Assembly: GCF_002288265.1 (NCBI RefSeq) | Contig: NZ_CP016778.1 | Coordinates: 372,001 to 436,000 of the forward strand | Source: Candidatus Planktophila versatilis | GTDB taxonomy: Bacteria > Actinomycetota > Actinomycetes > Nanopelagicales > Nanopelagicaceae | DNA: 64,000 nt | Direction: 5' to 3' | Shown: in pieces, positions 12,883-39,741 of the stretch | Layout: each line of letters opens with the position of its first letter | Numbering within the stretch: position 1 is the first letter of the stretch | Made by a program: the position numbers and the translations under genes | The notes under the pieces: model-generated | Databases searched by the model: none | Told to the model about the DNA's origin: nothing | What the model saw: only the letters and a program-made list of their open reading frames with translations

Positions 12883-12928
12883 TCTTTCTTTTATCCCTTC
12901 TCACCAAGACTCCAAGCAAAGAACGGAA

Positions 12929-14069: not shown

Positions 14070-14100
14070 TTGACTCATACGCGGGGCTGAGGGTTAGAGT
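14070..14100 (+). promoter_or_regulatory. Putative promoter of cluster A importer
   Basis: TTGACT (14070-14075) and TAGAGT (14095-14100) are 19 bases apart; reading the -10 as GTTAGA gives 17. The start codon is about 33 bases downstream with AAGGGAAAGG as ribosome site. Position is plausible; no direct proof. Confidence 0.4.
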
Positions 14101-14132
14101 AACGATTCCACACTAAGGGAAAGGTCGTCTCT

Positions 14133-17025: not shown

Positions 17026-17358
17026 ATGATGGAAAGATTATGTTTTCTTATTCATTTGTTTGACGATGCTGGAGCAGAATACGACCAAAGACACGATGAT
17101 ATTTGGCCAGAAATGGAGGAAGCTGTTGCCGCCGCTGGCTTTAGAAATTACTCACTATTTAGATTGGGAAACCTTGCTGTGGGCTATGCCGAATGCGAGC
17201 CAGATATCGAGACGGTTTTAATTAAAATGGCTACTTTCGATGTTGAGCATAAGTGGAATGCTTCACTAGTACATGTTATTAAAAATGCCGCTGGTGAAAA
17301 TGGCGGCTTGATCAATGTGCCTGAGGTGTGGCACCTTAAAGTGAAGAATTCAAAATAA
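17026..17358 (+). CDS. L-rhamnose mutarotase-family protein
   Basis: 110 residues. The RhaM signature is visible as YDQRHDDIWPEMEEA (about 19-33, with the catalytic His) and near the end PEVWHL. The family interconverts alpha and beta anomers of L-rhamnose, and relatives serve L-fucose and similar 6-deoxy sugars. ATG 17026 directly abuts the permease stop, and the next gene overlaps its stop by one base, so the mutarotase belongs to the importer operon. The context suggests the imported sugar is an aldose oxidised by a non-phosphorylating route. Confidence 0.85.
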   Translation: MMERLCFLIHLFDDAGAEYDQRHDDIWPEMEEAVAAAGFRNYSLFRLGNLAVGYAECEPDIETVLIKMATFDVEHKWNASLVHVIKNAAGENGGLINVPEVWHLKVKNSK

Positions 17359-19528: not shown

Positions 19529-19575
19529 ATCAGTAGGCTATTTAGTAATGTCGCGAGTCTTAGCCCCAGTTTGTG

Positions 19576-20373: not shown

Positions 20374-20394
20374 GTTTTGATCCCCTTTGTGGAG

Positions 20395-21525
20395 TTAGCC
20401 TTGGTAGAGATACTTCTTTACTGCTTTTTCATCGATGGTTATACCCAAACCAGGAGTGTTGGGTACAGCAATCCAGCCATCTTTTTGTTCAATGGGGTTC
20501 TCAACTAATTCATGTTGCATAGGAGATGGTGCTGGCTTTAGCTCAAAGACCTCTCCATTTGTGGAGGCCGCATAGACGTGAAGTGAGGCGGCAGTATTGA
20601 TTGCACTGGACCAAGAATGAGGGACAAAACGCACTCTTTGGGTGAGGGCATCATCAACGATAGCTTTCATTCCGCTAATTCCTTCAACCCGTCCTGGATC
20701 TACCAAGATAATATCAATGGCCTTACTACGCACTAAGCGTTGATAGTCATGCAAAGTCCAGCAGCGTTCTCCAGTGGCAAGGGCAGTGGGAACTCTTGAC
20801 TTCATTTGTCGATAGCCGTCATGATCGTCGTGATGTAGCGCATCTTCAAACCAGGTCAGATTTACTTCTAGTAAATCTTCCGCCATTGTGGCAGCGTGAC
20901 TTGCACTCCATTTTGCAAGAGCAGAGACATCTATCGCCATTCCCATATCTGGGCCAATTGCCTCGCGGACAGTACGCGCAACTTTCATATCTCGAACTCG
21001 GTTTGTTCCAAATCCCGCTTCCGGAACTTGCCCCCAACCACCCTTAACGGCGGAGAACCCACGTTCGCGATAGCTAGTGAACTCCTCTTGCAAGGCTCCT
21101 AAATCCAGAGTATTCAGAATCACTGAAGCACAAGATGGAACTCTCTCCATTAACGTTCCACCAAGCATTGCTGAAACCGGAAGTCCGGCAGCTTTGCCCG
21201 CAATATCCCAGAGAGCTATATCTAGGGCTGAGATTGCAAAAGAGACAATGCCTCCATGCCCATGCCAGTAAGCATGATTTCGCATTTTTTGCCAGAGACG
21301 ACCTACTTGAGTTCCATCTTCTCCCATTAAGAGTTTGGCAAATCCTGCATCAATAATTGTTTTTACGGCCAGTGCGGCTTCAGGCCACTGCGAAATACAT
21401 TCTCCCCATCCGACGATTCCGTCAGAGGTTTCAATGCGAGTCAGCGTTACATATCTGATCTTGTTGTCATTGTTTGGCTCCGGGTATTGCATCGGAAATG
21501 CCTCAACTCGAACTATCTTATTCAT
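20395..21525 (-). CDS. Second enolase-superfamily acid-sugar dehydratase
   Basis: 376 residues. The capping domain shows GIVGWGEC and AISALDIALWDIAGKAAG (about 107-124). The barrel holds the metal ligands in MAIDVSA, WFEDALH and ATGERCW, with histidine in FVPHSWSS. Unlike the dehydratase at 18422, it has the common AISALDIALWDI block and a C-terminal PNTPGLGI tail. The pair suggests handling of more than one sugar acid, or a dehydratase plus an epimerase. Encoded on the opposite strand, together with the SDR. Confidence 0.85.
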   Translation of the reverse strand: MNKIVRVEAFPMQYPEPNNDNKIRYVTLTRIETSDGIVGWGECISQWPEAALAVKTIIDAGFAKLLMGEDGTQVGRLWQKMRNHAYWHGHGGIVSFAISALDIALWDIAGKAAGLPVSAMLGGTLMERVPSCASVILNTLDLGALQEEFTSYRERGFSAVKGGWGQVPEAGFGTNRVRDMKVARTVREAIGPDMGMAIDVSALAKWSASHAATMAEDLLEVNLTWFEDALHHDDHDGYRQMKSRVPTALATGERCWTLHDYQRLVRSKAIDIILVDPGRVEGISGMKAIVDDALTQRVRFVPHSWSSAINTAASLHVYAASTNGEVFELKPAPSPMQHELVENPIEQKDGWIAVPNTPGLGITIDEKAVKKYLYQG

Positions 21526-25378: not shown

Positions 25379-25564
25379 ACTGGGTTCACCTCATTTGATG
25401 CGCTCTATATCAACGTCAATGGCGAGAGTGGATTCTTTGAAACATCCCTAGCTGCCTATGGCCAAGAAGGTGAGCCATGTCCACGGTGTGGTCGGGGGAT
25501 TAGAAGAATTGCCTTTGGTAATAGGTCATCACATTTTTGTCCGAAGTGTCAGGTGACGAGCTAA
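25379..25564 (+). pseudogene. Truncated second copy of the mutM 3' end
   Basis: This stretch encodes the last 58 or so residues of MutM, from [17 protein letters not shown] through the zinc finger to QVTS and TAA 25562-25564, without start or upstream domains. From 25388 to 25513 it aligns without gaps to 13737-13862 and differs at 14 of 126 positions, nearly all silent (one Met to Leu change); from 25514 to 25555 it is identical over 42 bases. Only the last three codons then differ. It is a broken copy from a related mutM allele, not a separate gene, and its stop overlaps the dhaL-like stop by 4 bases. Confidence 0.93.
25514..25555 (+). repeat. 42-bp direct repeat, right copy
   Basis: Identical to 13863-13904 in mutM. 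The sequences differ again right after it (TGCGGACC in the left copy context, TGACGAGC here), placing a sharp right-hand boundary. Confidence 0.85.
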
Positions 25565-26223
25565 TCCCCATTCTTGCTAAAAAAATCTATTGAGTTAGCG
25601 AGAGTTTCAAAAAGAGCAGTCATAGACGTTGCTCCTGGGTCTATATGACCGATACTTCTTTCGCCTTGATAACTTCCTCGACCTTTTCTAGCTTCCATTT
25701 GTGCCGTCTTTGCGCATCCAAGTTCAGCGGCTTGGTGTGCTTTAGTAAATGCCCCTAATAGATCTTCTGAGTTTTTAACACTAGTAATGAGAGAACTTAC
25801 CGCTGGATTTAGCGCGTCTACTAATGTTTTATCACCTGGTTTCGCTCGACCCAGTTCCATAATCCCCTCGAGTGCAGATTCAAATGCCTGCGACATGGTG
25901 TTCAAATTTGCAGTAGCTCTATTTGCCGTAACATCACTGAGCCGAAGAAACAGAGTTCCGTAGAGTGCTCCACTTGCACCACCGACTGAATTTATAATCG
26001 TCATCCCTGCGAATTCAAAAAACTCACCCAATGATTTAGATTGAGGTCCTTTGAAAGCTTCTAGGAGCGCCCTGGCCCCGTTGGAGATATTTGAACCATG
26101 TTCGCCATCACCAACTGCAGCATCTAACTCGTTAAGGTAGTCCTCTAGCTCAATTACAGCTTCGCAGAAATCATTTAACCAATTTTGTGCAATTGGTATC
26201 GATACCTCTGTAACCATAGTCAT
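25561..26223 (-). CDS. dhaL: DhaL-like kinase subunit (ATP-binding part of a dihydroxyacetone-type kinase)
   Basis: 220 residues. The Mg-ATP site [13 protein letters not shown] (33-45) matches the LD-x-x-x-GD-x-DHG site of DhaL, but the third Asp is Glu41. The [10 protein letters not shown] loop (near 79-88) and [20 protein letters not shown] (near 182) are conserved. DhaL holds ATP and phosphorylates the ketone bound by DhaK. It is coupled to the dhaK-like gene (4-base overlap). No phosphotransferase component DhaM is present, which fits an ATP-using rather than PEP-using kinase. The stop abuts the mutM remnant. Confidence 0.88.
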
Positions 26224-27206
26224 TTACCCCATCTCAACGCTGGCGTGTCTATCGGTGAATCATAAAGTTCAAGCAATTCTTCATCTGCAACTAAGAACGT
26301 CGCAATGACTCCAAAGGAATCTAAGGAAGTGATAAAATTACCAACAAGTGAGCGAACTGCCTTCGTTCCAACGCTTTCAAGCTTCTCTTGGATAATTCCC
26401 GACAAGGTATAAAGTTCAATAGATGGTGTTGAACCTAAGCCACTAAGTAGAAGAATAATCTTCTTGCCAAAAGCTAGTTCCAGCTCTAACGCCGGTTGCT
26501 CAATTAAAATCTCGGCAATCTTGTTAGCAGAAACCATTTTTGACCTTGAGTGTCCGCGATCTCCTCCAATACCAACCCCGATATCAAATTCATCTTCTGG
26601 CATCTCAAAATTTGGATGACCAACTTTAGGGGTCGTGCATGAGTTGAAGGCAACTCCAAAAGAACGTGAGTTTGCAACTACTTTTTTAGCTATTGAGGTT
26701 ACTTGGGCTAAATTGTATCCGCGTTGCGCTGCGGCTCCGGCTATTTTTTCAACAAGAATTGTCGCACCGAGCCCACGACGCCGATCAAACTGCGAAATAG
26801 GAAATGAACAATCATCATTTACAAGGACCTTGGATATTTCAATACCTTTTCGCTTCATGATTTCGGCAGAGAGCCCGAAATTCATCACCTCGCCACCAAA
26901 GTTCTTGATTATGTAGAGGACGCCCTTTCCACTATCTGCCCTCTCGGTGGCAGCCATGATTTGTGCTGGCACAGGGGATGTGAAAATTTCTCCTGGGCAA
27001 GCTGCATCGAGACCGCCGAACCCTACATAGCCACTATGCATCGGCTCGCAGCCTGAACCCCCACCGGATATGAGTCCAACTTTCGGTTGAGTCGGGAGCA
27101 ATTTTCTCTGGACAATGCGCGCCTCGGAATTGAACTCAATTACCTCGGGGTGGGAGGCCGCGAGGCCACGCAGATACTCATTCACCACGGATTCAGGTGC
27201 ATTCAT
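26220..27206 (-). CDS. dhaK: DhaK-like ketose-binding subunit with substituted active-site residues
   Basis: 328 residues, full length, ending [12 protein letters not shown] as in DhaK. Compared with E. coli DhaK, the active-site residues are changed: the His of GGGSGHEP is Cys53 (GGGSGCEP), Asp109 is Glu106 (GGEVMNF), and the His that binds the ketone covalently (GVGIHGEPG) is Gly214 (GVGIGGDRG); His219 lies five residues later. Surrounding blocks are intact. It pairs with the DhaL-like gene and is divergent from the importer. It may phosphorylate a different sugar by another mechanism, or act as a sensor. Standard dihydroxyacetone kinase activity is unlikely. Confidence 0.82.
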   Translation of the reverse strand: MNAPESVVNEYLRGLAASHPEVIEFNSEARIVQRKLLPTQPKVGLISGGGSGCEPMHSGYVGFGGLDAACPGEIFTSPVPAQIMAATERADSGKGVLYIIKNFGGEVMNFGLSAEIMKRKGIEISKVLVNDDCSFPISQFDRRRGLGATILVEKIAGAAAQRGYNLAQVTSIAKKVVANSRSFGVAFNSCTTPKVGHPNFEMPEDEFDIGVGIGGDRGHSRSKMVSANKIAEILIEQPALELELAFGKKIILLLSGLGSTPSIELYTLSGIIQEKLESVGTKAVRSLVGNFITSLDSFGVIATFLVADEELLELYDSPIDTPALRWGK

Positions 27207-27252
27207 TATTTTCTTGATCGGATTTCCTCCATTATGCCTCGGGCAAGCCCCC

Positions 27253-27295
27253 TTGACAAAGAGGGATTTTCGCCTAGGTTAGTGGTCTGAAGACC
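27253..27295 (+). promoter_or_regulatory. Putative promoter and operator between dhaK-like and importer genes
   Basis: TTGACA (27253-27258) and TAGGTT (27275-27280) with a 16-base spacer, followed at 27284-27295 by the perfect palindrome GGTCTGAAGACC, positioned over the likely start point. Such a site fits a repressor of the GntR type; the cluster B regulator is encoded at 32238. Inferred, not proven. Confidence 0.45.
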
Positions 27296-27338
27296 TGATG
27301 ACAAGAACTTCTGAACTATTTGGACTGGGGGAGAAACG

Positions 27339-28943
27339 ATGCGCGAAAGTGCTTTTGCCGATGTTTCCTCCTCAAAAGCGGGCTCTCCGATACTAAAAAT
27401 GTCCTCGATTTCAAAGCGATATCAGGGTGTTCAAGCTTTGGATAACGTCGACTTGGATGTGCGAAGCGGCGAAATTCATGCGCTCCTGGGGGGTAACGGC
27501 GCCGGAAAGTCGACCCTGCTCAAGATTCTTTCTGGGCTAACTGCCCCGGATGAGGGAATCATCTATTTTCAAGGTCAGCGCGTCGAAATTGAATCACCAC
27601 GAAGCGCCCAAGAACTGGGTATTTCCATGATTCATCAGGAGCTCTCGATCATCCCTGACTTGAGCGTTCTTGAGAATATTTTCCTCGGTCAAGAGAGCCT
27701 GATAACACAACGTAAAAGCTGGACTCCGTGGGTGAACCGCCGCGAAATGGCCAAAAAGGTCCGCAGGGTTGCCACCGAGTTTGGAATTACCGAAGACGAG
27801 CTTTGGCGCCCTGCGGGTGAGTTCGGTGCGTTGAAAAAGAGATCTATCGAAATTGTAAAAGCTCTCGTAGTCCAACCAAAAATTCTTATTCTTGACGAGC
27901 CCACATCCGGTCTAGAAGGGCATGAAAAAGAATTGCTTTTTGGGCACATGCGAAGCCTTCAGCGTCTTGGTGTGGCACTCATTTGGGTTACGCATCATTT
28001 AGATGAAGTATTTGGTCTTGCTGATACCGCAACAATTATGCGTGATGGTAAAAGCATTGCCCAAACATCGATTGAAGGCCTAAATCTTAACGACTTGATT
28101 TCGCTCATGTTTGGATCACAAGCGGCTGCTCTCATAGAGCAACCAAAAGTTGGGAGAGCTGCAGGAAAGACTGGCAGCGAGAATCGCTTTAAGACTCTAG
28201 AAGTAGAGGGTTTCAAGCGAGAGGGAGTTCTGAAAAATATTTCATTCGACCTCTGGGATGGTGAAATTCTGGGCATTGCTGGATTAGCAGGCGCTGGGCG
28301 CACAGAGCTGATGAGAGCACTTATGGGAATAGACAAGCTCGATAGTGGGTCTATAAACATTTTTGGGAAAATTGAAAAAATTGGGCACCCAGAGAAAGCC
28401 TACGAACTTGGAATTGCCATGGTTCCAGAAGATCGAAAGGTTCTTGGCATCCTCTCTGAATTCTCCATCGAGAAGAGTATTTCAATTTCTAAGTTAGTGA
28501 ATGTATTGAAGAGCGGCTGGTTGAGTGCAAAGAAAGAGAAGGATTTGGCGTCAGAGTTTATTTCTAAGTTTTCAATTAAGACACCTAACTCTCGCGAGAA
28601 GATTCGTAATCTCAGTGGTGGAAACCAGCAGAAAGTAATTATATCTCGATGCTTGAATACAAATCCAAGAATTTTGATCTTTGATGAACCAACACAGGGA
28701 ATCGATATCGCCTCAAAAGTTGAAGTCCACAAGCTCATTCGTGAATTAGCAGCTGGAGGAAAATCAGTTATCGTTATTGCCTCTGAGTTAAATGAGTTGA
28801 TTCGACTGAGCGATCGCATCATTATTCTCCGCGAAGGGTCAATTGTTGGCGAAATAGAATCTGTACCTGAAAAAATTCAAATCAGTGGATACGAATTAGT
28901 CGAGCAGGACATCCTGCATCAGAGTTCAAGAGTCAAAGTATGA
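27339..28943 (+). CDS. Sugar ABC importer ATPase, two-domain (RbsA type)
   Basis: 534 residues with two ATPase domains. Domain 1: Walker A GGNGAGKST (about 50-58), Walker B ILILDEPTSGLEG. Domain 2 (from about 290): degenerate first loop GLAGAGRTEL, signature LSGGNQQK (about 427), Walker B LIFDEPTQGID. The first-domain signature position reads FGALKKRS instead of LSxGQ, so only one site is probably catalytic, as is common in RbsA-like proteins. It opens the plus-strand importer operon of cluster B and overlaps the next permease by 4 bases. Confidence 0.93.
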   Translation: MRESAFADVSSSKAGSPILKMSSISKRYQGVQALDNVDLDVRSGEIHALLGGNGAGKSTLLKILSGLTAPDEGIIYFQGQRVEIESPRSAQELGISMIHQELSIIPDLSVLENIFLGQESLITQRKSWTPWVNRREMAKKVRRVATEFGITEDELWRPAGEFGALKKRSIEIVKALVVQPKILILDEPTSGLEGHEKELLFGHMRSLQRLGVALIWVTHHLDEVFGLADTATIMRDGKSIAQTSIEGLNLNDLISLMFGSQAAALIEQPKVGRAAGKTGSENRFKTLEVEGFKREGVLKNISFDLWDGEILGIAGLAGAGRTELMRALMGIDKLDSGSINIFGKIEKIGHPEKAYELGIAMVPEDRKVLGILSEFSIEKSISISKLVNVLKSGWLSAKKEKDLASEFISKFSIKTPNSREKIRNLSGGNQQKVIISRCLNTNPRILIFDEPTQGIDIASKVEVHKLIRELAAGGKSVIVIASELNELIRLSDRIIILREGSIVGEIESVPEKIQISGYELVEQDILHQSSRVKV

Positions 28944-29959
28944 GAAGTCAATCAAAGTTCTCCAAGATTATTGCAATAGAAGGCGTCGTTATTCTCGCTG
29001 CATTTGTTTTGATGGTCATCTTCTTCTCTTTGAAAGCTGAGTCATTCCTAATTCCTGATTCGATTAGATACTACATCAATGAAGCGGTGCCAATTTTCAT
29101 CATTATTGTCGGATTAACATTTGTAATTATTGCTGGCGGGATTGATTTATCAATTGGATCTGTACTCGGATTAAGTGCTGGTACATCATTGATGGTTTCT
29201 ATGTGGGGATGGCCATTTTGGATGGCTGTAATTGTTGGTGTCTTGACCGGCCTGGCTTTCGGCCTTCTCAACGCCGTAATCATCACAATTTTTAGGGTCA
29301 ATGACTTCATAGTTACTTTGGGAACTCTCTATATAGCAGCAGGGGCGCTCACTGTTCTCACAGATAACATTCAACTGATTGGAACCGAAGACACTAACTT
29401 TCAACGTATTTCTGATATGAGTTTCTTGGGTCTCACTAGTTCCATTTGGATTGCACTGGTAATTATTGTGGTGGCCGAGTTGGTTCTGCTCAAGTCACCT
29501 TTTGGACGCCGAATTTTTGCTACAGGTATTGGAGAGGTCCCGGCGCTGATTTCTGGAATCAACACCCAACGGACCAAATTTGGTGCCTACTTGATATCTG
29601 GTGGTTTGGCTGGTTTTGGAGGCGTCCTTTTAGCATCCCACTTAAATTCAGTGCAATCAGGCTTAGCCGGAGGTTATGAACTCACAGCGATAGCAGGTGC
29701 GGTACTTGGTGGCATTTCACTCGCTGGCGGACGCGGCAGTGTATGGCGAGCAATCGTAGGAGCTCTATTCCTAACAACACTGAATCAAGGTTTGCTGCTC
29801 ATGGGAATAAATCCACTGATATTCCAAATTGTTACAGGCCTTTGCATCCTGGTTGGAGTTGTCATAGATCGAGGAGTTTTCAAATTTGCGCTTACTTTCT
29901 CGACGCAAACACGAGAAGTGAATGCTCAACCCCTTGATGGCAAGAAGGTTTCATCATGA
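28940..29959 (+). CDS. Sugar ABC importer permease 1 (RbsC family)
   Basis: 339 residues, eight to ten membrane helices. Conserved blocks are IIAGGIDLSIGSVLGLSAGT (near 60) and AVLGGISLAGGRGSVWRAIV (near 255). It overlaps the ATPase gene and the second permease gene by 4 bases each. The two permeases would form a heterodimer with the two-domain ATPase, as in AI-2 and rhamnose importers. Confidence 0.9.
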   Translation: MRSQSKFSKIIAIEGVVILAAFVLMVIFFSLKAESFLIPDSIRYYINEAVPIFIIIVGLTFVIIAGGIDLSIGSVLGLSAGTSLMVSMWGWPFWMAVIVGVLTGLAFGLLNAVIITIFRVNDFIVTLGTLYIAAGALTVLTDNIQLIGTEDTNFQRISDMSFLGLTSSIWIALVIIVVAELVLLKSPFGRRIFATGIGEVPALISGINTQRTKFGAYLISGGLAGFGGVLLASHLNSVQSGLAGGYELTAIAGAVLGGISLAGGRGSVWRAIVGALFLTTLNQGLLLMGINPLIFQIVTGLCILVGVVIDRGVFKFALTFSTQTREVNAQPLDGKKVSS

Positions 29960-30966
29960 CACTCAATATTGCAGCAAGTAATTCATCAAAGTCCATACAG
30001 AATCGTATTTTGCAAGATCCTTCATTTGGAATTGTTGCACTCCTTGTCGTGGCAATAATTGCAATGACAGTTCTAGAACCAAGCTTTGCGACAGGCGGGA
30101 ACGTCACAAACATCATCAACGCAATGATGACCGTAAGCTTTTTAGCTATTGGAATGACAGTCGTACTAATTGCAGGCGGACTTGATCTTTCTGTAGGTTC
30201 GACAATGGCAGTAACCGCAGGCGTTGCCGGAAAGTTCATATCTTATGGAATGCCTATGGGTGTCGCCTTTATGTGGTCGCTAGCCATTGGTGTGGGAATT
30301 GGGTTAATCAATGGGTTGCTAATCACAAAGCTAGGGATACCTGATTTCATTGCAACTTTGGCCACGCTAGGAATTGGACAAGGGGTTATTTTGCTTTGGA
30401 CCCAGGGTGTTCCAATTCTAGGTTATATGAATGATGCCTATTACTACATCGGAGGACTTAAGAAGATAGCTGGTCCGATATCAATTCCGATGATTGTTGT
30501 TGTTGTGATTTCGATAGTGATGGCAATTATTTTGAAGCGCACTAAGTTTGGGCTCAAATTATACGCAGTCGGGAGCTCACCAATCTCGGCTCGAAATGCT
30601 GGAGTCAATGTCGATGCAATCAAGATTTCTGCCTATGCCATCAGCGGATTACTCGCCGCGATTGCAGGAATACACATTGCTGGTCGCACGACAACGATCC
30701 CGCCGCTGATTGGCAAAGGTTATGAGATAAGTGCGATTGCAGCTGCTGTTATTGGCGGAGCTTCACTCCTAGGTGGCAAAGGAAGGGTGATTGGTGCGCT
30801 AATTGGTGCGCTAACTCTGACTTTAACTCGAAATGTTATCAATTTGATTGGAATTGAATCGAGTTGGCAATCCATTGTTACTGGTTCGGTTCTTATTGGA
30901 GCCGTACTGGCTAATCGAGCATCAAGTGAATTCAGCCGCAAAAGACTCAGGCGAGAGAAGACCTGA
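29956..30966 (+). CDS. Sugar ABC importer permease 2 (RbsC family)
   Basis: 336 residues with the same family blocks, LIAGGLDLSVGSTMAVTAGV (near 73) and AVIGGASLLGGKGRVIGALI (near 265). It is not closely similar to permease 1 outside these. Two hairpins lie between its stop and the substrate-binding protein gene. Confidence 0.9.
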   Translation: MTLNIAASNSSKSIQNRILQDPSFGIVALLVVAIIAMTVLEPSFATGGNVTNIINAMMTVSFLAIGMTVVLIAGGLDLSVGSTMAVTAGVAGKFISYGMPMGVAFMWSLAIGVGIGLINGLLITKLGIPDFIATLATLGIGQGVILLWTQGVPILGYMNDAYYYIGGLKKIAGPISIPMIVVVVISIVMAIILKRTKFGLKLYAVGSSPISARNAGVNVDAIKISAYAISGLLAAIAGIHIAGRTTTIPPLIGKGYEISAIAAAVIGGASLLGGKGRVIGALIGALTLTLTRNVINLIGIESSWQSIVTGSVLIGAVLANRASSEFSRKRLRREKT

Positions 30967-31064: not shown

Positions 31065-32198
31065 ATGGATGAAAACGTTGGAATGGGGAGAGATACAGAT
31101 TTTTCTCGTCGCTCGATACTACGTACCTCGGCACTAGTCGGTGCCGGAATTGGAGCAGCACAACTACTGGGTGCTTCTCCTGCCGTAGCATTAGGTGGGA
31201 CTACTAATGCTTCGCTAGATAAGGCAATCAAAGCTATGGTTAAGGGACGCACAATAAAGGTAGGTTTTACACCGCCTGTATTGTCTGAAAACTTTACACA
31301 GATTGAAAGTGCTGCTTGGCGCAAGATGGCTGAGTTTGAAAAGCGCTTTGGAGTCAAGTGGGTTTGGGAACGCCAAGCACCAGTTGGTGACTTCAATGCA
31401 GTTCAGGGAACTCTAGGAATCGTTCAGTCCTGGATCAGCCGTCGATTTGACGCCATTGCAGTATGTACTGGTGCCAACTTCGCGACCGTACAAGATCTCT
31501 ACAAAACCGCAAACTCAAAGGGACTTCAGGTTTTCCAATTCAACCAGCCTGCAGAGCTGTACCCAGAAGCTGAGCTTGAGACAGTTGCAAATATCGGCTA
31601 CGACAATCGTTGGCAGTCCGGTTACCTAGCAGGAACATACTTGGCAAATGCCTTGGGTGGAAAAGGAAAGATCCTTCAAATATGGGGACCTTCCGGCTCA
31701 GATTGGACTCGCGGCCGTAGAATTGGTTTCGACAAAGCCCTTAAAGAAAATCCTGGAATTAAAGTTGTCGGAGAAGCCGATGGCGGATACGTCCGCGACA
31801 AGGGATTCACTGCAGCACAGGACCTTTTGACTAAGTATCCTGATGTGAACGCCATCTACGGCGAAAATGAGGAAATGGCACTCGGTGCTTCTCAAGCAAT
31901 CGATGCAGCTGGCCTCAAGCACTGGAATGGAAAGACCGGTATTTTGACTATTGGCGCTGACGGTCTCATTTCTGGATTCAAAGCAATCGCTGAAGGAAAG
32001 CTAACTGCCACAGTTGATATTGGTGGAATCGACCAGGGACAAAACCTGATTGAAACTATTTTTTCAACTGTTGCACTCGGTCAGTCAGTTACTCAAATTA
32101 TTAACAACCCAACACAGGTTGTGGATAAGACAAACTACAAATGGCACCAGGCTTATGCGCAGTGGGCACTTGACACACCACGTAAGTATGGCAAGTAA
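31065..32198 (+). CDS. Sugar-binding protein of cluster B importer, Tat-exported
   Basis: 377 residues with an N-terminal twin-arginine signal: FSRRSILR at 14-21 followed by a hydrophobic core ending ASPAVA-LG. The mature protein is a type I binding fold of the Peripla_BP_4 family (IKVGFTPPVLSENFTQIE at 65-82; GADGLISGFKAI near 302). Export through Tat implies folding before export, unlike the lipoprotein of cluster A. Ligand unknown; the neighbours point to a sugar or polyol that is oxidised to an acid inside the cell. Confidence 0.88.
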   Translation: MDENVGMGRDTDFSRRSILRTSALVGAGIGAAQLLGASPAVALGGTTNASLDKAIKAMVKGRTIKVGFTPPVLSENFTQIESAAWRKMAEFEKRFGVKWVWERQAPVGDFNAVQGTLGIVQSWISRRFDAIAVCTGANFATVQDLYKTANSKGLQVFQFNQPAELYPEAELETVANIGYDNRWQSGYLAGTYLANALGGKGKILQIWGPSGSDWTRGRRIGFDKALKENPGIKVVGEADGGYVRDKGFTAAQDLLTKYPDVNAIYGENEEMALGASQAIDAAGLKHWNGKTGILTIGADGLISGFKAIAEGKLTATVDIGGIDQGQNLIETIFSTVALGQSVTQIINNPTQVVDKTNYKWHQAYAQWALDTPRKYGK

Positions 32199-32237: not shown

Positions 32238-32981
32238 ATGACAACAGAGAAAAAAGGGGTTATACCCGTCAAGCAATTGAAGCTCTCTGATGCTGTCGCT
32301 GTCCAACTTGAAAGCTTGGTTCGATCTGGCCACTTTGGTGCCGAGGGTAAATTTCCTTCCGAACGCGATTTAGCAGAACAGTTCGGTGTCGGTCGCAGCA
32401 GTATGCGAGAAGCGATCAGCAAATTGGAAACCCTCGGCATCATTGTGCGCACACAAGGTGTTGGAACTTTTGTTCTAGATGTGAGTGAGCAATCTCAGAA
32501 AAGCATGTCATTGCTTTCTGCAGGAGAAGTCACAGCTCTTGAACTATTCAATGTTCGTTACGCAGTTGAACCCGATGGTGCCGCTATGGCAGCAAATCGT
32601 CGCACAGCAAAGGATATCCAGGAGCTGAAAGCAATCTTGAAGCAAGCGGAAGTTCCTGGAATCTCGGGGAAGGAATTTGTGAAACTCGACTCTGAATTCC
32701 ATAGTTTGATTGCCGAAGCAACAAGGAATCGTCTATTTATTCAGATTTATAAGCAGATTGCCCCTCATCACGTGATTTACTCCGAAAAAGTAATTTCATT
32801 TGAAAACCGCAAGACTCTCGCTCACCAAGGTCACCTTCGAATCCTGGAAGCCATCATCGCTCAAGATGACAAACTTGCCAAGAAGGAAGCCTATGCCCAC
32901 TTGAAATGGGCTGAAAAAGACCTAGTGAAAGAAATCAATAGGTTAGAAGCAAAGAAGTCAAAAACTAAAAAAAGCAATTAA
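32238..32981 (+). CDS. GntR-family regulator (FCD/FadR subgroup) of cluster B
   Basis: 247 residues: winged helix at about 14-80 (SERDLAEQFGVGRSSMREAI, then KLETLGIIVRTQGVGTFV) and helical FCD domain with probable metal-binding positions in DSEFHSLIAEATRN (near 154) and HQGHLRILEAI (near 196). AAGGAGG lies 5-7 bases before the ATG. A likely target is the palindrome at 27284 and the promoters of the surrounding operons. It is only 39 bases after the binding-protein gene, so it is probably part of the same transcript. Confidence 0.88.
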   Translation: MTTEKKGVIPVKQLKLSDAVAVQLESLVRSGHFGAEGKFPSERDLAEQFGVGRSSMREAISKLETLGIIVRTQGVGTFVLDVSEQSQKSMSLLSAGEVTALELFNVRYAVEPDGAAMAANRRTAKDIQELKAILKQAEVPGISGKEFVKLDSEFHSLIAEATRNRLFIQIYKQIAPHHVIYSEKVISFENRKTLAHQGHLRILEAIIAQDDKLAKKEAYAHLKWAEKDLVKEINRLEAKKSKTKKSN

Positions 32982-33008: not shown

Positions 33009-33704
33009 ATGTCATCACTAGATTTCACATATAAGAACATCGACAAGTACATCAACCGTTCCAACATGATCGTTGACAAAATCAATCCCAAAAAGTCTCT
33101 TCTACTCGTTCTTGATATGCAGCACGCGTGCGTAACAAGAGGTGGAGCTATGTACATCCCAAGCATTGGCGGCGCTCCAGAGGGTGCAGATGTTGTTCAG
33201 CCAGTACTTAATGTCTTAAATGCTTGCCGCAAAGTTGGCATTCCAGTGGTCTGGTCAATGTGGGGCTTGCGTGAAGATGGCAAAGATGCCGGCTATGCAG
33301 ATAAGAAGTGGGGCGTTGATTTGATGAACTTCCCAGGTTCTTGGGGTCACGGTGGAGATGAATTAGATTCAAACCTCGTTCCGCTTCCAGGTGAGCCAAT
33401 CATGAAGAAGCACCGTTTCTCATCATTCTACGGAACGGCACTCAACGAATACATGAAGCGTGCAGGCGCTGACACATTGATCATCGCAGGTGTATCTACC
33501 GCAAATTGTATGCTCACAACTGCAATTGATGGAGCTAACCAAGATATCAAGGTAATTTGCTTGGCAGATACCACAAGTGCAATCCCGGCATCACTTGAGA
33601 ACCAACCTGATGGTTATGGACAGCATTGGGAAGCACTTCGAAACATTCAGGCAAATCACGGTGATGTTCGCCTAAGTACCGAGATTCTTCCACAGCTCGT
33701 TTAA
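33009..33704 (+). CDS. Isochorismatase-family cysteine hydrolase
   Basis: 231 residues with the triad Asp36 (LLLVLDMQHACV), Lys134 (MKKHRFSSFYG) and Cys167 (GVSTANCMLTT), including the cis-peptide region GVSTANC. The fold covers amidases, nicotinamidases and isochorismatases; this one is not close to any that I can name. RBS AAGGAG at -9. The gene is 28 bases after the regulator and 50 before the DJ-1-like gene. Its role in a sugar cluster is unclear, perhaps hydrolysis of an amide or ester intermediate. Confidence 0.85.
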   Translation: MSSLDFTYKNIDKYINRSNMIVDKINPKKSLLLVLDMQHACVTRGGAMYIPSIGGAPEGADVVQPVLNVLNACRKVGIPVVWSMWGLREDGKDAGYADKKWGVDLMNFPGSWGHGGDELDSNLVPLPGEPIMKKHRFSSFYGTALNEYMKRAGADTLIIAGVSTANCMLTTAIDGANQDIKVICLADTTSAIPASLENQPDGYGQHWEALRNIQANHGDVRLSTEILPQLV

Positions 33705-33753: not shown

Positions 33754-34278
33754 ATGAGCATTCAAGGCAAAAGAATTGCATTGATGATTGAAGACGAGTA
33801 CCAAATCCTAGAAGGTTGGTACCCGTATCTTCGGTTGACCGAAGCAGGAGCAAAGGTGACTGTCATTGGTAGCGGTACCAAGACGTCATACCTGAGCAAA
33901 GAGGAATATCCAATGGATGCAGATGCTTCTGCTTCGGATGTTTCACCTAACGACTTTGATGGGGTAATTGTTCCTGGTGGATTTGCACCAGACAACATGC
34001 GCCTTCACAAGCCCATGATCAATTTGGTCAAGGGAATTTATGATCAAGGCAAGATGACTGCCGCCATCTGCCATGGTGGATGGATTTTGGCTTCTGCCGG
34101 CGCGGTGAAAGGTCGACGAGTAACTGGTTATGCGCCGATTGAAGACGACGTTGTTAATGCAGGTGGAATTTGGGTATCTGATCAAGCGGCTGTTGTAGAT
34201 GGAAATGTAATCACATCTAGAACACCACCAGATCTGCCAGCTTTCACAAAAGCAATCATCGGGTACTTCGAGAAGTAA
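33754..34278 (+). CDS. DJ-1/PfpI family protein
   Basis: 174 residues. The nucleophile elbow is AAICHGGW with C106 and H107, and the glutamate position near the start is in EDEYQ (13-17). It is the PfpI-type length. Family functions include peptidase, glyoxalase/deglycase and hydratase. Placed between an isochorismatase-like and a GMC oxidoreductase gene, it may detoxify or hydrate a reactive carbonyl intermediate (inference). Confidence 0.87.
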   Translation: MSIQGKRIALMIEDEYQILEGWYPYLRLTEAGAKVTVIGSGTKTSYLSKEEYPMDADASASDVSPNDFDGVIVPGGFAPDNMRLHKPMINLVKGIYDQGKMTAAICHGGWILASAGAVKGRRVTGYAPIEDDVVNAGGIWVSDQAAVVDGNVITSRTPPDLPAFTKAIIGYFEK

Positions 34279-34296: not shown

Positions 34297-35967
34297 ATGA
34301 CACCGAAAATCAAGCCAGCACCAGTAGACGTCGTAATCGTCGGCTTAGGTGCAAATGGTGGAACAGCTGCAAAAGTATTGAGTGAAGCAGGTTTGAAGGT
34401 TGTCGGTCTTGAGCGCGGTCCATGGCTCAAGAACGATAAGCACTATTCAGGCGATGAGTTGAAGTTTGTTAACAGAAACTACATGTGGCCTGATTCAAAG
34501 CTAACTCCTCGTACCGTGCGTCGTAGCGAGACTGAAGTTGCAGAGCCTTATCCATTTTCAATGACCCCTCAGCTCGTCGGTGGCGGAACAAATCACTGGG
34601 CAGGATGGGTACCGCGGCCGCGTGAATCTGACTTCATGCTCCGGTCTTTACATGGCGATGTTGATGGAGCGAGTTTGGTGGATTGGCCATTTCGCTACGA
34701 TCACCTAGAGCCCTATTTAACAAAGGTTGAATGGGAGTTTGGTGTATCAGGTATTGCTGGTGCAGATAAGACCGAACCTTTCAGAAGCAAGCCTTATCCA
34801 AGCATGCCTTTGCCTCCAACTCGATGGGGGAGGAAGTTCTACGATGCATGTAACAAGATGGGAATTAATGCTTTCCCAATCCCACATGCAAGCGTGACTA
34901 ATGGCCACAAGGGTCGCAATCCGTTTAACCGCACTAGTTTTTGGAATCAATATGGAGATCCAAGTGGTGCTCGTTCAAACACTGCAACGACCTTTATTCC
35001 AGAGGCAATTGCGACAGGTAATTTCGAACTTAGATCAGAAGCTTTCGTCCGCGAAGTCGTAGTTGGCAAAGATGGTAAGGCTACTGGCGTTATCTACGTT
35101 GATGAAGATGGTGCTGAGATTCAGCAAGATGCAAAGGTTGTAATTCTCACTTTGGGAGCTATTGAATCTGCGCGCCTTATGTTGATGTCAAAGTCTTCAA
35201 AATTCCCAGAAGGAATTGCCAACTCATCCGGTCTCGTTGGAAAGAATGCAACATTCCACGAGTACCTGTTCGCAATCGGATTTTTCGATAAAGATATCGA
35301 TGATCCTGTATATGGATGGGCCGGAAATTATATTAGTGGCGGAACAATGGACTTCTACGAGACCGACGAGAGCCGTGGATATATTGGTGGAAGCATCACT
35401 GCAGCTTCGCAGACATGTCACCCAATTAACATGGTCTTCCCTGGTCGTCCGCTTTGGGGTCAAGCTCTCAAGGATTCTGACAGAACCTTCTTTAGCCATG
35501 CGATGAAGATTGGTCTCATTCTGCACGACTTACCACAAGAGTCTAATCGTGTTGACCTCGATCCTAACGTTAAGGATTACATGGGTCTTCCAGTAGCTCG
35601 CATTACTCACAAGGCGCATGCAAATGACGTCGCAATGGGTAAGTGGCAAGTTGATAAAAACGTTGAAATTCTTGAGATGGCAGGAGCTCGAAAGACAATC
35701 CCTGTTTATCTTGATCAAATGACGGGAAATACTTGTCACCAACACGGTACTGCGCGCATGGGATTTGATCCTGCGAAGTCAGTACTTAATGAATGGTGCC
35801 AGTCCCATGATGTCGAGAATCTCTTTGTTCTAGACGGATCAGGATTCCCAACTGCAACAGGCGTGAATCCAACTCTAACAATGATGGCTAATGCTTGGAG
35901 ATGCTCAGATTACATTGCTGACTATTACCTCAAGGGACGCGAAATGCGTCTAGAGCAACCGAAGTAA
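34297..35967 (+). CDS. GMC-family FAD oxidoreductase (sugar/polyol dehydrogenase large subunit)
   Basis: 556 residues. N-terminal FAD-binding VIVGLGANGGTAAKVLSEAG (residues 10-29), then GGGTNHWAGW (95-104), and the C-terminal NTCHQHGTARMG (near 475, containing the catalytic His) and GVNPTLTMMANAWR (near 525). The layout matches the large subunit of gluconate 2-dehydrogenase/glucoside 3-dehydrogenase-type enzymes. No signal peptide is seen, so it is cytoplasmic or uses a partner. The gene for a gluconate 2-dehydrogenase subunit 3-like partner follows 22 bases later; no cytochrome c subunit is adjacent. Confidence 0.9.
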   Translation: MTPKIKPAPVDVVIVGLGANGGTAAKVLSEAGLKVVGLERGPWLKNDKHYSGDELKFVNRNYMWPDSKLTPRTVRRSETEVAEPYPFSMTPQLVGGGTNHWAGWVPRPRESDFMLRSLHGDVDGASLVDWPFRYDHLEPYLTKVEWEFGVSGIAGADKTEPFRSKPYPSMPLPPTRWGRKFYDACNKMGINAFPIPHASVTNGHKGRNPFNRTSFWNQYGDPSGARSNTATTFIPEAIATGNFELRSEAFVREVVVGKDGKATGVIYVDEDGAEIQQDAKVVILTLGAIESARLMLMSKSSKFPEGIANSSGLVGKNATFHEYLFAIGFFDKDIDDPVYGWAGNYISGGTMDFYETDESRGYIGGSITAASQTCHPINMVFPGRPLWGQALKDSDRTFFSHAMKIGLILHDLPQESNRVDLDPNVKDYMGLPVARITHKAHANDVAMGKWQVDKNVEILEMAGARKTIPVYLDQMTGNTCHQHGTARMGFDPAKSVLNEWCQSHDVENLFVLDGSGFPTATGVNPTLTMMANAWRCSDYIADYYLKGREMRLEQPK

Positions 35968-35989: not shown

Positions 35990-36727
35990 ATGAGTTCAAA
36001 AGCAGACTGGAAGACGATTCTCGAACCTGTCAATCCAGATTCAAATGAGCCGCTCTTTTTTACAACGCACGAGTGGGATACAGTCGAAGCTATTGCTGCG
36101 CGAATTATCCCTACCGATCATGACCCGGGTGCCAAAGAAGCAAGAGCTGTTGTCTTTATCGATCGCTACCTATCGGGCATTAGTTATATTTTTGCATCGG
36201 CAGATGGCAGTGGATTCTTGGAAATTGATGGCAAGCACGCACATTCATGGCGCGCTCGTATCAGTGACTTGCAGAAAGTTTACCGAGAGGGGTTGCTTGT
36301 AGTTGACGAAGTCAGCATGAGCACTTATTCAAAGAAGTTTGTTGCTCTCGATAACGAGTCTCAAGACGCAGTTCTTGTGAAGGTATCTGGTCAGCCAAAA
36401 CCTGGAGCTGTAAATCTTGGAACTACAGAACCTGCAACAACATTCTTTCAGTTTGTATCAGATGATGGTCTTCCTTTCTGGCCGGCAATCTGCCTCCATG
36501 TTAAGCAAGGTTTTTATGCAGATCCTGTCTACGGGGGAAATAAGAATCATATGGGGTGGAAAGTCATTGGCTTCGATGGGCCAGAGAGCCTAAAGGACAC
36601 CATGGATGGTACTTACACAACCGCAGATAAATTCACAGGTGATTACAACTGGGGAGAATTGATTCCAGTACTAGCTAACCAAAGTGATTTTCCGGTACCA
36701 GTGAAGTCTGAAGGCATGTACAACTAA
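35990..36727 (+). CDS. Gluconate 2-dehydrogenase subunit 3-like protein
   Basis: 245 residues. FFTTHEWDTVEAIAARIIPT (about 23-42) is the typical start of the subunit 3 family; PFWPAICLHVKQGFYADPVYGG and MGWKVIGFDGP are the conserved C-terminal part. In known enzymes the small subunit supports folding and Tat export of the GMC flavoprotein. Here there is no twin-arginine signal at the N-terminus. It should form a complex with the GMC protein encoded upstream. Confidence 0.87.
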   Translation: MSSKADWKTILEPVNPDSNEPLFFTTHEWDTVEAIAARIIPTDHDPGAKEARAVVFIDRYLSGISYIFASADGSGFLEIDGKHAHSWRARISDLQKVYREGLLVVDEVSMSTYSKKFVALDNESQDAVLVKVSGQPKPGAVNLGTTEPATTFFQFVSDDGLPFWPAICLHVKQGFYADPVYGGNKNHMGWKVIGFDGPESLKDTMDGTYTTADKFTGDYNWGELIPVLANQSDFPVPVKSEGMYN

Positions 36728-36827: not shown

Positions 36828-37958
36828 ATGAAGATCGAAAGCGTTGTAGCTTACCCAGTTGGCCTCCCACTGGAGGAAAATCTTCAATGGGGCGCCATGT
36901 CGGTAAGCACAAAAGGTGGCATAGTCGTTGAGGTGAAGACCGACGAAGGATTAATTGGAGTAGGTGAGGCTGGATTTTCATCTGAATACTTCTCGACAGT
37001 TGGACCGCTTATTAATGATCAATTAGGACCACTCATTATCGGCCGTGACCCGCAAGATATATCTGCACTTTGGCATGACATGATGCGATCAACACATATG
37101 TGGGGTAGAAGGGGTATTGAAACCTACGCCCTCAGTGGAATAGATATTGCATTATGGGATTTGTTCGGCAAGATTACTTCACAGCCTGTCCATCGCCTTC
37201 TTGGAACAGCACAAAATTCGGTGCGTGCGTATTATGCGCCATCATTTAAGCACCCTGATATGGCGATTAAAGAAGCAATTCAGGCGACTGAACTGGGATA
37301 TACAGCAATTAAATTGCGCATTGATGGGAATTTGAAGAGCGCCGTCAGCTTAGTCTCGCAAGTGAGAACAGCTGTTGGTAATTCAATTGATCTTATGGTT
37401 GATGCGAATATGTGTTATGACCGCAGAGGTGCGCTAGCGCTTGCAAAGGAATTTCAAGACCTTGACGTTTTTTGGCTGGAGGAGCCGATTATGTCGCGCA
37501 GTCTTTCACAATACATCAATGATCATTCATGGCTAGCCGATCGAGTGGATTTACCGTTAGCTGGCGGTGAAAGCTTGCTCACTCGCTACGAGTACATCGA
37601 CCTTATGGCCAAGCTTCCATTTGATTACATCCAACCAGATGCGGCAAGCGTTGGTGGCATTTCAGAGCTTAAGCGAATTGGTGACATGTCTAGTTCTTGG
37701 AATCTCAAGTTGGTTCCACATATCGGTTGTTCTTCAGGAACTGGCATTGGATTAGCTGCAGCGCTTAACGTAATTTTGAGTTGTGATAATGCGCCACTCA
37801 TCGAAGTTGATGCTTACGGGGGATTAGGTTGGGAAGGATTCCTTACCAATCCGCTAAATGTTAAGGATGGACAATTAATCTCTAACAATCAACCAGGAAT
37901 TGGCGTAACTCTGGCACCTAGTGGGCGCGAACAGTTCAGTTTGCTGCCTCGAGTCTAA
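36828..37958 (+). CDS. Enolase-superfamily acid-sugar dehydratase of cluster B
   Basis: 376 residues. Capping domain with VKTDEGLIGVGEAG (36-49) and ALSGIDIALWDLFGK (104-118); barrel with AIKLRID (K-x-R), metal ligands in VDANMCY, EEPI and GGES, and QPDAASVGG with PHIGCSSG for the His-Asp dyad. This is the mandelate racemase layout of acid-sugar dehydratases such as galactonate dehydratase. It would turn an aldonate into a 2-keto-3-deoxy acid for the aldolase and kinase encoded next. About 100 bases with no gene precede it, so a separate promoter is possible. Confidence 0.87.
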   Translation: MKIESVVAYPVGLPLEENLQWGAMSVSTKGGIVVEVKTDEGLIGVGEAGFSSEYFSTVGPLINDQLGPLIIGRDPQDISALWHDMMRSTHMWGRRGIETYALSGIDIALWDLFGKITSQPVHRLLGTAQNSVRAYYAPSFKHPDMAIKEAIQATELGYTAIKLRIDGNLKSAVSLVSQVRTAVGNSIDLMVDANMCYDRRGALALAKEFQDLDVFWLEEPIMSRSLSQYINDHSWLADRVDLPLAGGESLLTRYEYIDLMAKLPFDYIQPDAASVGGISELKRIGDMSSSWNLKLVPHIGCSSGTGIGLAAALNVILSCDNAPLIEVDAYGGLGWEGFLTNPLNVKDGQLISNNQPGIGVTLAPSGREQFSLLPRV

Positions 37959-37960
37959 AT

Positions 37961-38620
37961 ATGGCTAATCTGAGCATGAATAAGCCTGGTAGATCAATGT
38001 TCGCTATTGCAAAACAAAAGCTAATGCCGGTCGTCATTATCAATGATGTCAGCCAAGCTGAGCCGCTTCGGGAGGCGCTAAAGCAAGGTGGCATTTTCAC
38101 GGCAGAAGTAACTCTGCGGACACCTAATGCGCTCAGAATTATTCAGATAATGTCAGAAGATCCAGATTTTTGTGTTGGTGCAGGGACAGTGTTATCTCCA
38201 GGAGATGCCGATAAGGCTCAATCTGCAGGAGCTCAATTTGTGGTTTCTCCGGGCCTGAGTATTGCAGTTGTCGATGAATGTGATCGAGCCGCTATGCCAT
38301 ATTTCCCTGGAGTCTCCACCCCCACTGAAATTCAGAGAGCACGCGACTTAGGATTTAATGAGCTGAAATTCTTTCCTGCCGAGGCACTGGGGGGTGCGCA
38401 ATATTTGAAGGCAGTAGTGGCTCCTTTCCATGATATGAAGTTCATTCCGACAGGTGGAATTAATCTTACAAATGTCGATTCATATCTTGCGGTACCTCAA
38501 GTTCTAGCTGTAGGTGGATCGTGGATTGTCAGTGAAAAACTCTTGGTAGCTGGAGATTTTTCAGCAATTACTTCTTTAACTCGTGAAGCAGTTGCTCAGA
38601 TGAATTCGCACTCTAGTTAA
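37961..38620 (+). CDS. KDPG/KHG-type aldolase (Eda family)
   Basis: 219 residues. Schiff-base Lys136 (ELKFFPAE), Glu49 (AEVTLRTP), the CVGAGTVLSPGDADKA segment (71-86) and phosphate-site FIPTGGIN are all present, so the enzyme should cleave a 2-keto-3-deoxy-6-phospho-aldonate into pyruvate and a phosphotriose. It begins 2 bases after the dehydratase stop and is followed by a PfkB kinase, together forming a complete dehydratase-aldolase-kinase unit. Confidence 0.9.
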   Translation: MANLSMNKPGRSMFAIAKQKLMPVVIINDVSQAEPLREALKQGGIFTAEVTLRTPNALRIIQIMSEDPDFCVGAGTVLSPGDADKAQSAGAQFVVSPGLSIAVVDECDRAAMPYFPGVSTPTEIQRARDLGFNELKFFPAEALGGAQYLKAVVAPFHDMKFIPTGGINLTNVDSYLAVPQVLAVGGSWIVSEKLLVAGDFSAITSLTREAVAQMNSHSS

Positions 38621-38622
38621 GT

Positions 38623-39741
38623 TTGGGGCCACACTTGAAGAACATCTTGGATATCAAATCTGCTGAGGAATGTGAATTTGCTGCTCTCGCCCTGGGTGAG
38701 GTCATGCTCCGCCTCGACCCTGGAAACACTCGCATTCGCACTGCTAGACGATTTGACGCATGGGAAGGCGGGGGAGAATACAACGTTATTCGCGGACTCC
38801 GAAAAGTTTTTGGGTATAAAACTGCAATAGTTACATCTCTGGCACAGAACGACGTTGGGCTTCTGATTGAGGATTTGATTCTTCAAGGCGGAGTTGACTC
38901 CCGCTTTGTTAAGTGGGAAAAATATGACGGAGTAGGCCGTAAAGTGAGAAATGGCTTGAATTTCACCGAGCGTGGTTTTGGTGTCAGAGGAGCTCTCGGC
39001 GTTTCAGATCGCGGTCACACTGCGGTCTCACAGCTGAAAAAAGGTGATGTTGACTGGGAACATATTTTTGGTGAATTAGGTGTTCGCTGGTTTCACACGG
39101 GTGGAATCTTTGCCGCTCTTTCGGATTCAACGCCAGATGTAGTAGAAGAAGCGATGATTTCGGCTCGGAAGCATGGCACGATTATTTCTTACGACCTGAA
39201 TTTTCGGCCAAGCCTTTGGCAGGATATAGGTGGAAAAGCTAAGGCCCAGGAAGTAAACCGAAGGCTCGCTAAGTATGTAGATGTCATGATTGGTAATGAG
39301 GAAGACTTTATTGAGGCACTTGGTTTTTCGGTAAAGGGTATGGACGCCAATTTTACCAATCTAGAAATTGATGGATTTCAAACAATGATTCTTGATGCAG
39401 TAAATGACTTTCCAAATTTTAAGGTGATTGCAACCACCTTACGTTCTGTGAATTCAGCCAGCGATAATGATTGGTCAGCAATTGCGTGGTCGCGAGAAAC
39501 AGGCTTGGTTCAGTCGAGAAAATGGAAGAGTCTAGAAATCTGGGATCGCGTTGGCGGCGGCGATAGCTTCGCGTCCGGTTTGGTTTTTGGATTGATATCC
39601 GAGCAAACCTTGCAAGAGTCGGTGAATCTTGGGGCGGCACATGGAGCAATAGCTATGACAACTCCGGGTGATACGTCAATGGCTAGTCGCTCCGAAGTTG
39701 AAAAGCTTGCTGGTGGTGGAAGCGCGCGAGTCCAACGCTGA
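38623..39741 (+). CDS. PfkB-family sugar kinase (2-keto-3-deoxygluconate kinase-like)
   Basis: 372 residues if read from TTG 38623; TTG 38635 is another start, and the GGGG before it could serve as a weak ribosome site. PfkB motifs: GGGEYNVIRGLRKVFG near residue 48 and the anion-hole/catalytic-base motif RVGGGDSFASGL near 305. With the aldolase and dehydratase this predicts phosphorylation of 2-keto-3-deoxygluconate or its galacto epimer. At 372 residues it is longer than typical KDG kinase (about 310). The last gene of cluster B. Confidence 0.87.
   Translation: MGPHLKNILDIKSAEECEFAALALGEVMLRLDPGNTRIRTARRFDAWEGGGEYNVIRGLRKVFGYKTAIVTSLAQNDVGLLIEDLILQGGVDSRFVKWEKYDGVGRKVRNGLNFTERGFGVRGALGVSDRGHTAVSQLKKGDVDWEHIFGELGVRWFHTGGIFAALSDSTPDVVEEAMISARKHGTIISYDLNFRPSLWQDIGGKAKAQEVNRRLAKYVDVMIGNEEDFIEALGFSVKGMDANFTNLEIDGFQTMILDAVNDFPNFKVIATTLRSVNSASDNDWSAIAWSRETGLVQSRKWKSLEIWDRVGGGDSFASGLVFGLISEQTLQESVNLGAAHGAIAMTTPGDTSMASRSEVEKLAGGGSARVQR

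Follow-up and report, generated by a model that had tools for sequence, protein, structure and literature searches.

A relative of dihydroxyacetone kinase lacking both active-site histidines is linked to a ribose-type importer and may phosphorylate its substrate without a covalent bond

DhaK is the classic example of a kinase that holds its substrate through a covalent bond to a histidine. In a 2011 study of the E. coli enzyme, His56 reportedly aids formation of the hemiaminal bond and Asp109 serves as the base. The Lactococcus paralogue DhaQ, which has a TetR partner (DhaS), keeps the covalent histidine. Dihydroxyacetone kinases of both kinds bind their substrate to histidine as a hemiaminal and transfer phosphate directly from the nucleotide (PMC6429413), and in the phosphotransferase system (PTS)-type DhaL of E. 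coli a cap slows the exchange of ADP (PMC9136124). Here we analyse a window of 64,000 nucleotides from Candidatus Planktophila versatilis (NZ_CP016778.1, positions 372,001 to 436,000; a complete one-contig genome of 1.33 Mb), in which an earlier note, made from the letters alone, had drawn attention to a DhaK-like protein without the active-site histidines. Among the open-licence titles and abstract starts that our searches listed, none dealt with DhaKs lacking these residues.

The DhaK-like protein (328 aa; 26220..27206, minus strand) is encoded by an open reading frame with an ATG start and no internal stops. Alignment to the solved E. coli DhaK confirmed the three replacements given in the earlier note, with Cys53 at the position of His56, Glu106 at that of Asp109 and Gly214 at that of His218. 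The bond-forming histidine (His218 in E. coli) is thus missing, being Gly or Ser in all 18 distinct members of the group described below, and where a dihydroxyacetone kinase has His56 and Asp109 the window protein has Cys53 and Glu106. The fold-defining blocks and the C-terminus are intact, as had been claimed: Pfam Dak1 (PF02733) matches with 342.4 bits (cut-off 31.4) over profile positions 1–313, the whole profile, and the C-terminus is complete in the alignment to E. coli DhaK. Scores fall below the cut-offs of the DhaK equivalog model TIGR02363 (356.7 bits, cut-off 406.25), of the DhaQ coactivator model TIGR02362 (222 bits, cut-off 413.25) and of TIGR02361 for one-chain ATP-dependent dihydroxyacetone kinases (265.9 and 130.4 bits, cut-off 574.95); the DhaK-like and DhaL-like proteins are separate open reading frames, not fused as in TIGR02361 proteins. 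In an AlphaFold model made with the 18 aligned members (mean pLDDT 86, pTM 0.89; TM 0.93 to 3pnk) the predicted fold is the DhaK fold of E. coli. The block 51–60, which contains Cys53, has a mean pLDDT of 47, and the model is therefore uninformative on the exact geometry of the site.

Sequencing error at the three sites, which the earlier note had named as a way in which its reading would fail, is very unlikely, as four orthologues from other genomes (82–95% identity) carry the same three residues. Comparison with the two nearest of these gave dS 0.27 with dN 0.023 and dS 0.40 with dN 0.025 (the remaining two are saturated at silent sites); judged by these values the DhaK-like gene is under purifying selection, and the low dN relative to dS led us to reject a decaying pseudogene.

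The earlier note had proposed building a tree of DhaK homologues and looking for a clade that shares Cys/Glu/Gly. Such a clade exists, and it divides into two sub-groups, with Gly and Ser respectively at the third site. The 105 distinct homologues in our tree comprise 87 with His/Asp/His, 10 with Cys/Glu/Gly and 8 with Cys/Glu/Ser, and no mixed residue set was seen among them; L168, a further sequence outside the 105, was read from residue 55 on only. With the three site columns excluded, the 18 Cys/Glu members form one clade apart from the His/Asp/His DhaKs, with SH-aLRT support of 98 in the 105-row tree, 100/98 in a 48-row tree (all 18 members and 30 hand-chosen rows of the 87 with His/Asp/His), and 100/99 after removal of the two long rows (L097 and E. 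coli). Support for the sub-groups is 100/99 for the Gly members and just 78/73 for the Ser members. The trees were midpoint-rooted, and we therefore infer the direction of the residue change; drawn in this way, the Cys/Glu group lies inside the His/Asp/His DhaKs and adjoins those of Actinomycetota. Columns 146 and 297 separate the 18 members completely from 58 near His/Asp/His rows, which have Val, Thr or Ile at column 146 (Leu or Met in the members) and Met at column 297 (Ser, Gln or Thr in the members). Because the identical change marks a whole clade, itself under purifying selection, we also rejected simple decay of a redundant copy.

Members of this clade are rare. We scanned a species-level genome collection with two peptide patterns, one containing Cys53 and one containing Glu106, a design that is blind to members with other letters at both positions. 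Of the 122 stretches that matched a pattern, 17 were confirmed as loci of this type, every one with Cys and Glu at the first two sites and either Gly or Ser at the third. Six of these had been picked up by the Cys pattern alone, and each of the six carries Glu106 and Gly or Ser at 214 too. These loci span Actinomycetota and Alphaproteobacteria: four are actinobacterial metagenome-assembled genomes (MAGs) that hold the genes of the window's family again, ten are other Actinomycetota (Micromonospora, two Nocardioides, an actinobacterial MAG, Aeromicrobium, two Cryobacterium, Arthrobacter and two Pseudonocardia), and three are Pseudomonadota (Mameliella, Pseudorhodobacter and Rhodobacter), which we take to belong to the Alphaproteobacteria. 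Several are MAGs, with names from record titles, and some duplicate loci found in other searches (L085–L088 hold the genes of L003–L006, L090 those of L032 and L093 those of L033). Within the window's family (296 genomes), 33 genomes had a Dak1 match, at 34 places; the 30 loci read comprise 5 with Cys/Glu/Gly and 25 with His/Asp/His, and the four other places have at most 43% identity. A class search found a Dak1 match in 158 of 394 genomes, with one Cys/Glu/Gly and one Cys/Glu/Ser among 28 new loci read, and a phylum search found one in 103 of 396 genomes, all 25 new loci read being His/Asp/His. Searches at a strict E-value returned nothing besides the centre in the family of Mameliella (248 genomes, centred on L096), and just the centre and the known L097 genome in that of Nocardioides (198 genomes, centred on L091). 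DhaK relatives on plasmids (659 records) all have less than 60% identity, as do those of the importer binding protein described below (976 records; about 27–31% among the 40 matches listed). A viral origin was rejected: a scan of viral_contigs with the single protein returned 32 stretches that matched a pattern, none of them a relative. Neither the DhaK-like protein nor the importer binding protein was found in G257, a complete genome of the same species, and the block is therefore variable within the species.

The gene for the DhaL-like nucleotide subunit (220 aa; 25561..26223, minus strand) overlaps that of the DhaK-like protein by 4 bases. Its product scores above the cut-off of TIGR02365 (199.7 bits, cut-off 138.3) and aligns without gaps to the PTS-type DhaL of E. 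coli. The E. coli Mg2+ segment, LDREIGDADHGL, supplies three aspartates (D30, D35 and D37); the window protein has Asp34, Asp39 and, at the position of D37, Glu41, in agreement with the earlier claim of a nucleotide site kept with one Asp-to-Glu change. We know of no tested precedent for Glu in place of Asp at this site. In the window and throughout the rest of the Gly sub-group the site holds two Asp and then a Glu, and the Ser sub-group has three Asp: all nine Gly-type proteins read carry the motif GDGEH, and all eight Ser-type ones GDADH (L089, with masked bases, is left out of the count); the change in DhaL therefore accompanies the Gly form of DhaK. Within DhaK itself, Gly214, Asp216, Arg217 and Arg119 are invariant in the 10 Gly members and absent from the 8 Ser members. 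These four residues co-occur with the Asp-to-Glu change in DhaL. A DhaL gene lies downstream on the same strand in all 17 loci, and the nucleotide-site motifs are kept in the loci read, with the DhaL of L097 departing at some conserved motifs; a further short locus, L037, gave no DhaL match.

Divergent from DhaKL, across an intergenic region (27207..27338), the plus strand encodes an ABC ATPase with two ABC domains (RbsA type; 27339..28943), two permeases (BPD_transp_2, RbsC type; 28940..29959 and 29956..30966) and a sugar-binding protein (Peripla_BP_4; 31065..32198) with what by eye is a twin-arginine-like start. This combination is that of a ribose-type importer, presumably of the CUT2 class, and the solved relatives of the binding protein are distant and of ribose type. 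The link to a sugar importer that the earlier note had remarked on is genuine and conserved, since an orthologous ribose-type importer, recognised by its binding protein or ATPase, adjoins DhaKL in all 17 loci. An orthologue of the binding protein is present in 16 of them (49–95% identity), the 17th (L087) being a cut contig of 4.3 kb, and the ATPase has a long match in 16. Among 34 control DhaK loci, by comparison, the binding protein was found at at least 40% identity in none, a long ATPase match in three, a permease match in four and a match to the DhaM-HPr-EI query (see below) in 11. The controls were chosen by hand (20 taken among the top-scoring matches of the class and phylum searches and 14 from genomes of clade members, with residues checked), and four lie on short contigs of 5.5, 9, 10.8 and 12.7 kb. 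Neighbours were counted by tblastn, with the window proteins and six proteins of other loci as queries, and the counts are minimum values at cut contigs. In the window's family of 296 genomes, an orthologue of the binding protein (at least 89% identity) is present in exactly the five genomes that have a Cys/Glu DhaK. One genome without a Cys/Glu DhaK, G148, has the importer with a binding protein of 52% identity, together with the GMC protein, small subunit and hydrolase described below, and at the place expected for DhaKL it has a divergent xylose isomerase (632 bits, cut-off 447), an arrangement that hints at an aldose substrate. At this locus (L132, 3737–17292) the importer relative adjoins xylose isomerase, mutarotase-like and ROK-type genes, not DhaKL.

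The plus strand continues with genes whose homologues recur at part of the 17 loci: a GntR/FCD regulator (32238..32981; 10 loci), an isochorismatase-like hydrolase (33009..33704; seven), a DJ-1/PfpI family protein (33754..34278; nine), a GMC oxidoreductase (34297..35967; nine) whose nearest solved relatives, fructose and glucose dehydrogenases, score alike, a Gluconate_2-dh3 small subunit (35990..36727; eight) and an enolase-superfamily protein of the mandelate racemase type (Pfam MR_MLE; 36828..37958; eight), which is likely a sugar acid dehydratase and scores below the cut-offs of all NCBIfam dehydratase models. They are followed by a KHG/KDPG aldolase (37961..38620; TIGR01182, 233.9 bits, cut-off 156) and a PfkB-family kinase (38623..39741), which KDG-kinase models match below cut-off. 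The families suggest a route from sugar through lactone, acid and 2-keto-3-deoxy acid to pyruvate. No lactonase was seen in the window's own block; a likely lactonase of the metallo-beta-lactamase fold occurs in four of the nine scan loci of Gly type, and five of the eight of Ser type have an SMP-30 protein. With GMC oxidoreductase, dehydratase, PfkB kinase and aldolase beside it, this near-complete oxidative route could allow use of the sugar without DhaKL. In the Pseudonocardia loci we found no homologues of the window's sugar-acid enzymes. Elsewhere in the window, 17358–21525 encodes two more dehydratase-like proteins of the enolase superfamily, accompanied by an SDR and a Gfo/Idh-type oxidoreductase, so that three enolase-superfamily genes lie within 20 kb; at 42210–44787 a MutH-domain gene and a convergent C5-cytosine methyltransferase gene, with overlapping ends, likely form a restriction-modification pair.

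The source of phosphate appears to differ among members. In both Pseudonocardia loci (L099 and L100, at about 11650–14120) a DhaM-HPr-EI fusion (EIIA-man/HPr/EI) directly follows DhaL, which points to a PEP donor chain and a working phosphotransferase; a second DhaM-HPr-EI gene lies beside an ordinary DhaKL in the one of the two Pseudonocardia genomes examined for it (L171, 4288–6774). The DhaM and EI of a PTS-dependent system are thus present in Pseudonocardia, and in the window genome neither an EIIA-man nor an EI domain was found (PF03610 and PF05524, zero matches). Neither was found in the Micromonospora genome, the Nocardioides genome has EI and lacks EIIA-man, the four Ser-type genomes tested have both, and in Cryobacterium and Arthrobacter an EIIA-man gene adjoins an ordinary DhaKL. 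Since neither domain turned up in the window genome, the expected donor in this organism is ATP. The window DhaL nevertheless aligns without gaps to the PTS type although no PTS parts were found, and for this reason it could turn over slowly, with slow nucleotide exchange, or not at all, or may have a regulatory role.

What the sequences show directly is the set of residues, the clade, and the conservation of both DhaL and the importer; we infer kinase activity, non-covalent binding, a role for Glu106, the phosphate donors and supply of the substrate by the importer. On balance we favour, by sequence comparison, the view that the DhaK-like/DhaL pair is a kinase that does without hemiaminal chemistry and phosphorylates an importer-supplied, non-covalently held substrate. 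It would be a two-subunit member of the dihydroxyacetone-kinase superfamily in which covalent substrate chemistry has been lost and non-covalent binding has taken its place, and its substrate would be the sugar delivered by the ribose-type importer or an early derivative of that sugar. Replacement of His56 by Cys and of His218 by Gly or Ser would remove both the carbonyl-bonding residue and the helper in bond formation, and without the two imidazoles the site could accommodate a substrate that is larger or cyclic. Glu106, which keeps an acid at position 109, should still accept the proton from the phosphorylated hydroxyl, and DhaL would deliver the phosphate, from ATP in the window organism and from PEP via DhaM-HPr-EI in Pseudonocardia. 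The Fak system offers a precedent for such a DhaL-type kinase working on a substrate enclosed by a different protein (PMC9136124). Weighing against this view are the gapless alignment of the window DhaL to the PTS type, the Glu at its Mg2+ site, the departures in the DhaL of L097, the oxidative route encoded beside DhaKL, the importer of G148 that comes without such a DhaK, and the three genomes with a single Dak1 gene. A fuller version, to which we hold only tentatively, is that the clade as a whole exchanged the hemiaminal for a Cys/Glu/Gly-or-Ser site and took up a new class of substrate, held non-covalently or by a Cys53 anchor, with a switch of donor (Pseudonocardia using PEP through a DhaM dedicated to the pair, the Gly sub-group using ATP, with the coupled Asp-to-Glu change in DhaL). 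The earlier note is thus partly supported. Its suggestion of a new mechanism on a different substrate holds as far as the loss of the covalent step, which the sequence implies: with both histidines lost, another substrate is probably phosphorylated without a covalent bond. The mechanism itself is our reconstruction. Between the kinase and the sensor that it had offered as alternatives, the kinase is favoured by the presence of DhaL in 17 of 17 loci and of DhaM-HPr-EI in two, and the analogy to DhaQ has become weaker.

A DhaQ-like sensor is the less likely of the two, and we regard it as unlikely. Here the DhaK-like protein would bind the imported sugar without catalysis and, with DhaL, signal to the GntR regulator or the importer, much as DhaQ acts with DhaS. 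The loss of both histidines fits such a role, as do the GntR homologues at 10 of the 17 loci and the pairing of a DhaL that resembles the PTS type with a genome in which no EI or EIIA-man domain was found. DhaL has, however, kept its nucleotide-site motifs in the loci read (less well in L097), a DhaM-HPr-EI dedicated to two of the loci is hard to explain without phosphate transfer, and DhaQ itself, the model of which the window protein matches with 222 bits against a cut-off of 413, retains the covalent histidine.

It is less probable again that the pair is still a dihydroxyacetone or glyceraldehyde kinase that has merely shed the covalent step. The group sits among true DhaKs in the tree, and the adjoining aldolase could yield a triose if it acted on unphosphorylated acids. 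The window, Micromonospora and Nocardioides genomes each yielded a single Dak1 gene, so that in these three a triose role could still fall to the Cys/Glu protein. Against this, a separate His/Asp/His gene is retained in eight of ten other genomes tested (24 Dak1 places, all read, with L168 covered as above), where the Cys/Glu DhaK is therefore no decayed sole copy; the change at the site is complete and coupled; and the importer binding protein is missing from all 34 control loci.

Slightly more doubtful than a triose kinase is the proposal that Cys53 is a new covalent anchor, forming a hemithioacetal with an aldehyde or ketone substrate and so keeping the covalent principle with a different nucleophile. 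All 18 distinct members have Cys53, in contrast to the third site, where Gly and Ser both occur, but conservation is no proof of reactivity, and the scan patterns demanded Cys or Glu. Moreover, position 56 of E. coli DhaK is presumably not the bond-forming residue, and the title of PDB entry 3pnq describes a structure of H56N E. coli DhaK with dihydroxyacetone, which we take to be non-covalent there. An acyl-phosphate kinase, in which DhaL would phosphorylate the carboxylate of a sugar acid bound to the DhaK-like protein, is very improbable: FakA, which acts in this way on fatty acids bound to FakB, gives the precedent of a DhaL-type kinase whose substrate sits in a distantly related fold (PMC9136124), sugar-acid enzymes adjoin DhaKL and an invariant Asp216-Arg217 lies beside the site in the Gly sub-group alone, but homologues of those enzymes were not found in the Pseudonocardia loci and the similarity to FakB/DegV is weak (TM 0.4–0.5).

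Should the favoured reading, a kinase without hemiaminal chemistry, be correct, a natural clade in which fold, partner and acid persist after the loss of both histidines would illustrate how a covalent mechanism is abandoned. The clade would also mark an uncharacterised sugar route in several free-living bacterial lineages, and its genes are likely named dihydroxyacetone kinase by similarity, perhaps wrongly.

Of the known systems, the DhaKL pairs of L163, L165 and L168 resemble the window locus in adjoining the two-domain ATPase and permeases of ribose-type importers, but have no orthologue of the window binding protein, and their DhaKs, perhaps erythrulose-type kinases, are 32–35% identical to that of the window and keep the Asp and the bonding His (position 53 of L168 lies outside the part read). 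These three loci lie in Cryobacterium and Arthrobacter genomes. The fatty acid kinase FakA/FakB likewise combines a DhaL-type kinase with a second protein, related in fold, that binds the substrate (PMC9136124); FakB, however, is a DegV protein with distant similarity only, and FakA has three domains. Lactococcus DhaQ (TIGR02362, PDB 2iu4) is likewise a DhaK paralogue of the same fold, but the window protein scores far below the DhaQ cut-off and is paired with a DhaL; among the regulators of the window cluster, those tested belong to the GntR family. Closest are the PTS-dependent DhaK/DhaL of E. coli and L. lactis, with which the window pair has in common the fold, the length, the gene pair, most DhaL motifs and the C-terminus, and from which it differs in the loss of His218 and His56, in Glu at the place of Asp109, in a genome without a match to EIIA-man or EI, and in the ribose-type importer that adjoins it.
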